Shown here one piece after another: positions 52,439 through 52,735 of a stretch of DNA of 64,000 nt. The stretch is taken from the NCBI GenBank assembly GCA_036522515.1, contig DATDFQ010000043.1:310001-374000 (forward strand). The letters run 5' to 3'. The stretch's first letter is position 1, and the number at the start of each line of letters is the position of its first letter. Made by a program: the position numbers and the translations under genes. This DNA comes from Bacteroidota bacterium (lineage in GTDB: Bacteria; Bacteroidota; Ignavibacteria; UBA10030; SZUA-254). The notes under the pieces were generated by a model. It had not been told where the DNA came from. It made no database searches and saw only the letters and a program-made list of their open reading frames with translations.

Positions 52439-52456
52439 CGCGACCTGAAGGTCGCG
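52439..52456. repeat. Dispersed palindrome CGCGACCT-GA-AGGTCGCG, copy 2
   Basis: Identical core to the copy at 46046-46063. It lies in the aroF leader between the attenuator terminator and the start codon, so it would be transcribed only in read-through mRNA. Confidence 0.8.
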
Positions 52457-52491: not shown

Positions 52492-52523
52492 AAAAAACCC
52501 CGCCGGTCTTCTCAGCAGGGTTT
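52492..52523 (-). terminator. Attenuator terminator in the aroF leader
   Basis: Minus strand RNA: AAACCCUGC (52523-52515) pairs with GCGGGGUUU (52503-52495), nine pairs including one U-G, loop 11 nt, then further U to 52492. It lies 27 nt after the stop of the leader peptide and about 95 nt before the aroF ATG. Confidence 0.8.
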
Positions 52524-52550
52524 CGTCATTTCTCGCTTAACGGTCTTGGT

Positions 52551-52628
52551 TTAAAGCGGATGCGCCTCTGCTGTCTTGCCCGCGGGGCAATAATAAAAAC
52601 GGGGGTAGCTGAGGCGTCCTGAATTCAT
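52551..52628 (-). CDS. Candidate aroF leader peptide (Phe-Tyr-Tyr attenuation peptide)
   Basis: A 25-codon frame from ATG 52628 to TAA at 52551 with codons Tyr8, Phe11, Tyr12, Tyr13 (PRFYYCP). Such a run of the pathway's end-product amino acids in a short frame just before a terminator is the mark of transcription attenuation. The -10 box ends 6 nt before the ATG, so translation would be leaderless; no ribosome site is present. RNA segments can pair alternatively: 52616-52611 with 52568-52563 (1:2) and 52573-52568 with 52518-52513 (2:3, blocking the terminator). Confidence 0.68.
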   Translation of the reverse strand: MNSGRLSYPRFYYCPAGKTAEAHPL

Positions 52629-52634
52629 GACTGA

Positions 52635-52663
52635 AGTATACGGAAGAGAACGGCGAAAGTCAA
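52635..52663 (-). promoter_or_regulatory. Promoter of the aroF leader
   Basis: Minus strand: TTGACT (52663-52658), 17 nt, TATACT (52640-52635), the same boxes as the surface-operon promoter at 31498-31526. Expected start of transcription is at or next to the leader-peptide ATG. Confidence 0.83.
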
Positions 52664-52685: not shown

Positions 52686-52735
52686 CGCGGCGCAGAGCGC
52701 CGCGGATATGCGTTCCCACGCAGAGCGTGGGAACG
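52686..52735. repeat. Twin-hairpin dispersed repeat with AGA loops
   Basis: Two perfect hairpins with the same AGA loop: CGCGGCGC-AGA-GCGCCGCG (52686-52704) and CGTTCCCACGC-AGA-GCGTGGGAACG (52711-52735). The second is a widely seen intergenic repeat (translated SFPRSAWER). It lies between the divergent aroF and PIG-L promoters. Confidence 0.8.

Follow-up and report, generated by a model that had tools for sequence, protein, structure and literature searches.

The aroF gene in this stretch of DNA is preceded by a leader region which is very probably a ribosome-mediated transcription attenuator, whose codons suggest that it senses a shortage of phenylalanine (Phe, F) or tyrosine (Tyr, Y). DAHP synthase catalyses the step that commits the cell to making the three aromatic amino acids; in textbook accounts its transcription is controlled by repressors. 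The window, that is, the whole stretch of 64,000 nt which we have analyzed, contains a promoter with a characteristic spacing, a short frame with a run of F/Y codons, a terminator and a helix flanking the codon run, and this arrangement is conserved in relatives. A previous sequence-only reading had described a near-consensus promoter, a 25-codon frame with Tyr8, Phe11, Tyr12 and Tyr13, and a terminator before aroF; all of them are found on the minus strand where it placed them. The features are the following:

52663-52658, minus strand: -35 box, TTGACT
52640-52635, minus strand: -10 box, TATACT, separated by 6 nt from the leader ATG
52628-52551, minus strand: leader frame MNSGRLSYPRFYYCPAGKTAEAHPL, 25 codons, without a ribosome-binding site; its F/Y richness is kept in relatives
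52616-52607, minus strand: segment 1, the 5' arm of the 1:2 helix (pause or anti-antiterminator helix)
52607-52605, minus strand: control codon Tyr8
52598-52590, minus strand: control codons Phe11-Tyr12-Tyr13
52573-52563, minus strand: segment 2, complementary to segment 1 mainly through GAGGCG and to segment 3 through CAGCAG
52524-52513, minus strand: segment 3, the 5' arm of the terminator, whose CUGCUG (52518-52513) is able to pair with CAGCAG of segment 2
52524-52492, minus strand: intrinsic terminator hairpin and U-tract (terminator with its T6 tract, 52524-52494)
52396-51380, minus strand: aroF, a type I-beta DAHP synthase with an N-terminal ferredoxin-like domain (PF18152 and PF00793)
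51342-49888, minus strand: FAD-linked oxidase (GlcD-like) gene, 37 nt after aroF

The promoter, TTGACT-17-TATACT, matches the consensus at 10 of 12 bases (with a spacer of 17) and is the only promoter-like site within 2 kb. Its spacing suggests that transcription starts at or next to 52628, so that the leader RNA appears to be leaderless. The sequence-only reading had proposed a frame translated without a ribosome site, in agreement with a Shine-Dalgarno pairing energy of +0.6 kcal/mol. In-frame TTG or GTG starts further upstream (LRREMVDF..., MVDF...) were rejected, they lie inside or before the promoter. The pattern TATACT, 5-8 nt, ATG and three F/Y codons has a single match in the 3.5 Mb genome, at the aroF leader, and none in a reversed-pattern control. 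The upstream neighbour is a divergent gene of the PIG-L family, so there is no upstream gene that the terminator could serve. The GlcD-like oxidase gene is possibly co-transcribed with aroF, as its position suggests, and would then be under the same attenuator.

From these elements we infer the following course of events. RNA polymerase would begin on the A of the leader ATG or on a base beside it, and the frame would be translated from leaderless RNA. If charged Phe- and Tyr-tRNA are plentiful, the ribosome would reach the end of the frame; formation of the 1:2 helix would be followed by that of the terminator, and transcription would end about 137 nt from its start. If Phe- or Tyr-tRNA is scarce, the ribosome would stall at Tyr8 or at Phe11-Tyr13, covering segment 1; segment 2, freed by the stall, would pair with the terminator's 5' arm, and transcription would go on into aroF.

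The aroF leader folds better than all of 200 dinucleotide shuffles (z = -3.25). The pairing of 52616-52611 with 52568-52563 (CGCCUC with GAGGCG), drawn in the sequence-only reading, is present and extends to nine pairs; the model energy of the 1:2 helix is about -20.3 kcal/mol, including a small inner hairpin. The terminator, at nt 105-135 counted from the predicted transcription start, had been given nine pairs and a U-tract: the hairpin and the T6 tract are there, the fold has 12 pairs including G-U (about -17.9 kcal/mol). The third pairing proposed, 52573-52568 with 52518-52513 (CAGCAG with CUGCUG), is also there as complementarity; its role as antiterminator is the weakest link of the attenuator model, and the evidence points to it only weakly. 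This 2:3 helix has six contiguous pairs and, taken as a bare helix, -6.2 kcal/mol, while the best fold from segment 2 to the terminator loop reaches -17.9 kcal/mol. With a ribosome modelled on Phe11, even the full RNA prefers the antiterminator fold. If the ribosome is placed on Tyr12 or Tyr13, the equilibrium favours the terminator, and the antiterminator is preferred only until the 3' arm has been made; the switch would therefore depend on the RNA folding while it is being transcribed. Attenuators are generally held to depend on such folding.

We have located aroF orthologues in 60 related genomes and read many of their upstream regions. The leader arrangement is found in six of the 13 readable genomes of the window's family (f1), counting the window's own genome (G000), and in two genomes of another family (f3). 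There are seven leaders in the six f1 genomes (G000, G005, G011, G004, G014 and two in G012). The peptides differ from each other, for example MNFRRFYFYYFYF, although the F/Y runs persist. Further examples of leader peptides are:

G005 (f1), before aroF: MNIGCFSYYYSYRFRFYTAEKRSFKF
G011 (f1), before aroF: MILGNAPYYYFYFFKGRLPAVARSSHS
G004 (f1), before aroF: MNFRRFYFYYFYFSPISPSPDLERRS
G014 (f1), before aroF: MNYRYSFYYYFYFSPRLRPDEEYLYS
G021 and G016 (f3): MTTRTINYRYYYSNPVRRDAE and MITGTTYYDWYYANPLQRDSV
G015 (a third family), before its other DAHP synthase: MTTENTKNSICHRYEYYSYYYYQFFGSQLGVYKFIF

Relatives had been suggested as a check of the leader frame and terminator. F/Y runs and terminator are kept in eight further leaders, from seven other genomes and two families, but the only relative of the same genus (G001) has no leader: a direct promoter lies next to its aroF. 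No clear leader is found upstream of the main aroF of G002, G006, G007, G008 and G013. In G003, a GC-rich hairpin is kept upstream of aroF, without a clear U-tract or leader. Taken together, these results support the reading of the aroF leader as a Phe/Tyr attenuator: F/Y frames, terminator and flanking helix are conserved in relatives.

In all nine leaders the bases just 5' of the F/Y run can pair with bases 3' of the run, though the sequences differ: the arms are, among others, CGCCUC/GAGGCG, ACGUUCC/GGAACGU, GACGCUUC/GGAGCGUC and AACGCGCCA/UGGCGCGUU in different leaders. Compared with shuffles, the helix has p <= 0.02 in seven of the nine leaders, the two f3 leaders alone are not significant; the combined Fisher p is 3e-10, relatedness being ignored. 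A leader's own arms bind better than arms swapped between leaders, with -14.1 against -9.2 kcal/mol (permutation p = 5e-5). The 1:2 helix flanking the control codons is thus kept by compensatory change. The 2:3 helix can form in all nine leaders when segment 1 is hidden, with a combined p of 0.02 against shuffles and of 0.17 by permutation, a test of specificity which is weak because the terminator arms resemble each other and are rich in GC. Between segment 2 and the terminator arm, CAGCAG/CUGCUG in the window corresponds to CGGCGG/CCGCCG in G005, with two compensatory changes; the sequence found in the window costs two G-U pairs in its own terminator.

The weakness of the 2:3 helix would fit a constitutive leader, whose terminator merely fixes the level of aroF and whose F/Y run is incidental. 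We regard this as very unlikely, since F/Y runs and a re-paired flanking helix recur in nine leaders, and Trp codons take the place of F/Y when the operon is a trp operon (see below). Another explanation starts from the unit of about 137 nt formed by promoter and terminator, which might produce a free-standing small RNA or a trans-acting peptide, control of aroF by read-through being secondary or absent; both rnTrpL and peTrpL of Sinorhizobium meliloti are trans-acting (PMC7298713). There is little to recommend it here: units of this kind are found repeatedly, immediately upstream of DAHP synthase genes, and among the leaders of relatives we have found no conserved RNA core and no conserved peptide or RNA sequence, except for the F/Y codons, the flanking complementarity and the terminator. 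An attenuator of aroF remains the preferred explanation.

A second leader, also presumably an attenuator, is found elsewhere in the genome:

Contig C28, 31633-31719, minus strand: Trp/Tyr leader before trpE (locus L242), with the frame MISVPRNSGFWYWYWFPVPSVPGGTRTA (FWYWYWF) and a terminator

Its promoter is TTGACA-17-TATCGT, followed by 6 nt and ATG, the same spacing as in the aroF leader. The gene after it is trpE, according to PF04715 and PF00425. A second DAHP synthase (C28, 25953-26960) lies on the same strand some 4.8 kb further downstream and directly follows the end of an apparent trpF gene (named by eye). It appears that, of the two long DAHP synthases in this genome, one is assigned to Phe/Tyr and the other to Trp through the leaders. 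Frames in which Trp codons stand close together, with a terminator, are found in the corresponding region of G003, G004, G007, G018, G020, G021, G030, G032, G048, G054 and G057. Pattern searches of the relatives were of little use: nearly all matches to a Trp-leader pattern were due to chance (one is real, in G018), and a His-leader pattern was too unspecific.

The start of the leader frame shows the same regularity in the window's family. The best promoter of the seven f1 aroF leaders ends 6 nt upstream of the ATG in six cases and 9 nt upstream in the seventh, and there is no Shine-Dalgarno pairing; therefore transcription should start at the start codon or within a few nt of it. Leaders in families f3 and f2 and some class-level leaders have other types of -10 box, so the leaderless start is proposed for the f1 aroF leaders. 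Among 55 leaders pooled from all groups, 25 have their best sigma-70 site 4-10 nt upstream of the start codon (11% expected from shuffles, p 1e-10); the same is true for only 3 of 79 start codons of the DAHP synthases themselves. Start codons of the cross-phylum leaders were picked by a fixed rule and not by promoter score.

We have extended the search to GTDB genomes of about seven phyla. An aromatic-rich short frame with a terminator lies within about 330 nt upstream of the gene in 38 of 79 DAHP synthase loci, while the same scan elsewhere in these loci is positive in 26 of 2256 windows (1.2%). The Fisher p of 1e-43 overstates the number of independent cases, because several loci belong to close relatives and the sample is not random: it consists of the best matches to the query (one subfamily) that have enough upstream DNA. 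Leaders are found in Ignavibacteria, Deltaproteobacteria (Geobacter group and Syntrophus), Planctomycetes, Deferribacteraceae, Firmicutes, Lentisphaerae and Photobacterium; within the survey loci L089-L165, an example from the Geobacter group is MNSNRFYVAFSFYFWFGFYFRPSARVEV. The 1:2 helix is modest in the cross-phylum leaders, 7 of 35 at p < 0.05 (Fisher 5.5e-7), and we make no claim for individual leaders. We consider it somewhat probable that attenuation by leaders with aromatic codons is common for type I-beta DAHP synthases across many phyla, that the frame often begins with the RNA's first base, and that, within a genome, the codons of the leader decide whether an isozyme is assigned to Phe/Tyr or to Trp.

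A leader controlled by a terminator, upstream of an amino acid gene, might also be a riboswitch or a T-box, sensing the amino acid or the tRNA directly. Among 20 surveyed loci without a frame of this kind, an Rfam scan detects two T-boxes, one directly upstream of the DAHP synthase, in the bacterium of locus L122, and another at 1.4 kb upstream, in L091. The window's leader does not match any of the Rfam covariance models compared (Phe_leader, Trp_leader, T-box and others), either at the gathering score or at E <= 1, and its relatives share no RNA core, which makes this the least probable of the explanations considered here, far less credible than translation-dependent attenuation. In a scan of twenty loci, 19 of them leader-bearing, the single match to a leader family is Trp_leader in Photobacterium.

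Several known systems resemble the aroF leader. In Corynebacterium glutamicum, aroF is attenuated through the leader peptide aroR (Phe-Tyr-Phe) and its transcription rises under Phe limitation, while Tyr availability has no effect, according to the accounts of Neshat et al. 2014 given in PMC11802643 and PMC4046766. As in that case, an F/Y leader peptide precedes a DAHP synthase gene, and the ribosome-mediated attenuation predicted here would be of the same kind; the phylum is another one, most relatives of the window's genome have a longer F/Y run, and the likeness is one of function only. Tyr is more frequent than Phe in our leader, so the amino acid sensed may differ. In Acholeplasma, the uORFC-13-1 motif before aroF was predicted in 2021 (PMC8632094): it also has a short upstream frame with Phe codon(s) and a terminator, but it was predicted with a ribosome-binding site and a conserved RNA motif, both absent here. 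Table 7 of a survey based on structure alone (PMC1173090) lists attenuators upstream of operons for type I-beta DAHP synthase in Thermus, Thermoanaerobacter and Bacteroides.

The pheA, pheST and trp leaders of Escherichia coli have the same layout, with control codons between segments 1 and 2 and a 3:4 terminator. Their leader peptides are translated with a ribosome-binding site. The sequence-only reading considered attenuation of aro genes to be known in enteric bacteria; in E. coli attenuation is known for trp, pheA and pheST and not for DAHP synthases, which are reported to be repressed by TyrR and TrpR (PMC11802643). Leader frames at the 5' end of the RNA are found in trpL of S. meliloti (PMC7298713), in ilvB of Corynebacterium diphtheriae (PMC5784534) and in the mycobacterial polycysteine leaderless ORFs (Canestrari 2020, as cited in PMC13236596). 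The aroF leader would share their leaderless leader peptide, to judge from promoter spacing alone; they concern other amino acids and other genes. It had also been suggested that attenuation would be new in this lineage: we have found nothing on this lineage in the openly accessible literature, but attenuation of aroF as such is already published for C. glutamicum aroR. The sequence comparisons thus give good support to a mechanism known from other bacteria, in what would be a new lineage, with a distribution which appears wider than that reported in openly accessible literature.

If the survey holds, repressor-free, tRNA-sensing control of the DAHP synthase step would be widespread and largely missed, because the leader frames, being short, variable in sequence and often without a ribosome-binding site, would escape both gene finders and Rfam. 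Cultured bacteria of the Geobacter group would be a place for asking whether attenuator leader peptides commonly come from leaderless RNA.

We have made some additional observations. In G006 and G008 another copy of the DAHP synthase has a Phe/Tyr leader (MSMFKRYYLYYYPWARDSALSLR and MSMFKRYYFYYFTRARDCALSLR; loci L083, 1243-1314, and L084). The leader-bearing extra enzyme of G006 is 284 aa long; the N-terminal region that would match the ferredoxin-like regulatory domain is missing, as if attenuation were in place of feedback inhibition. Tandem aroF duplicates (L008 and L010; G012 and G004) are separated by a short conserved frame containing F/Y codons (MGYEKYFVYTYARNE... and MGYEKFFDYTYLRK), with no adjacent terminator. 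Two short palindromes flank the aroF leader on the minus strand. The first, GTTCCCACGCTCTGCGTGGGAAC (52712-52734 of the window), has 94 copies in the genome with up to two mismatches, 59 of them exact; the second, GCGACCTTCAGGTCGC (52440-52455), has 103 exact copies. Reversed-pattern controls give 0 matches in both cases: these palindromes are REP-like repeats, dispersed throughout the genome.
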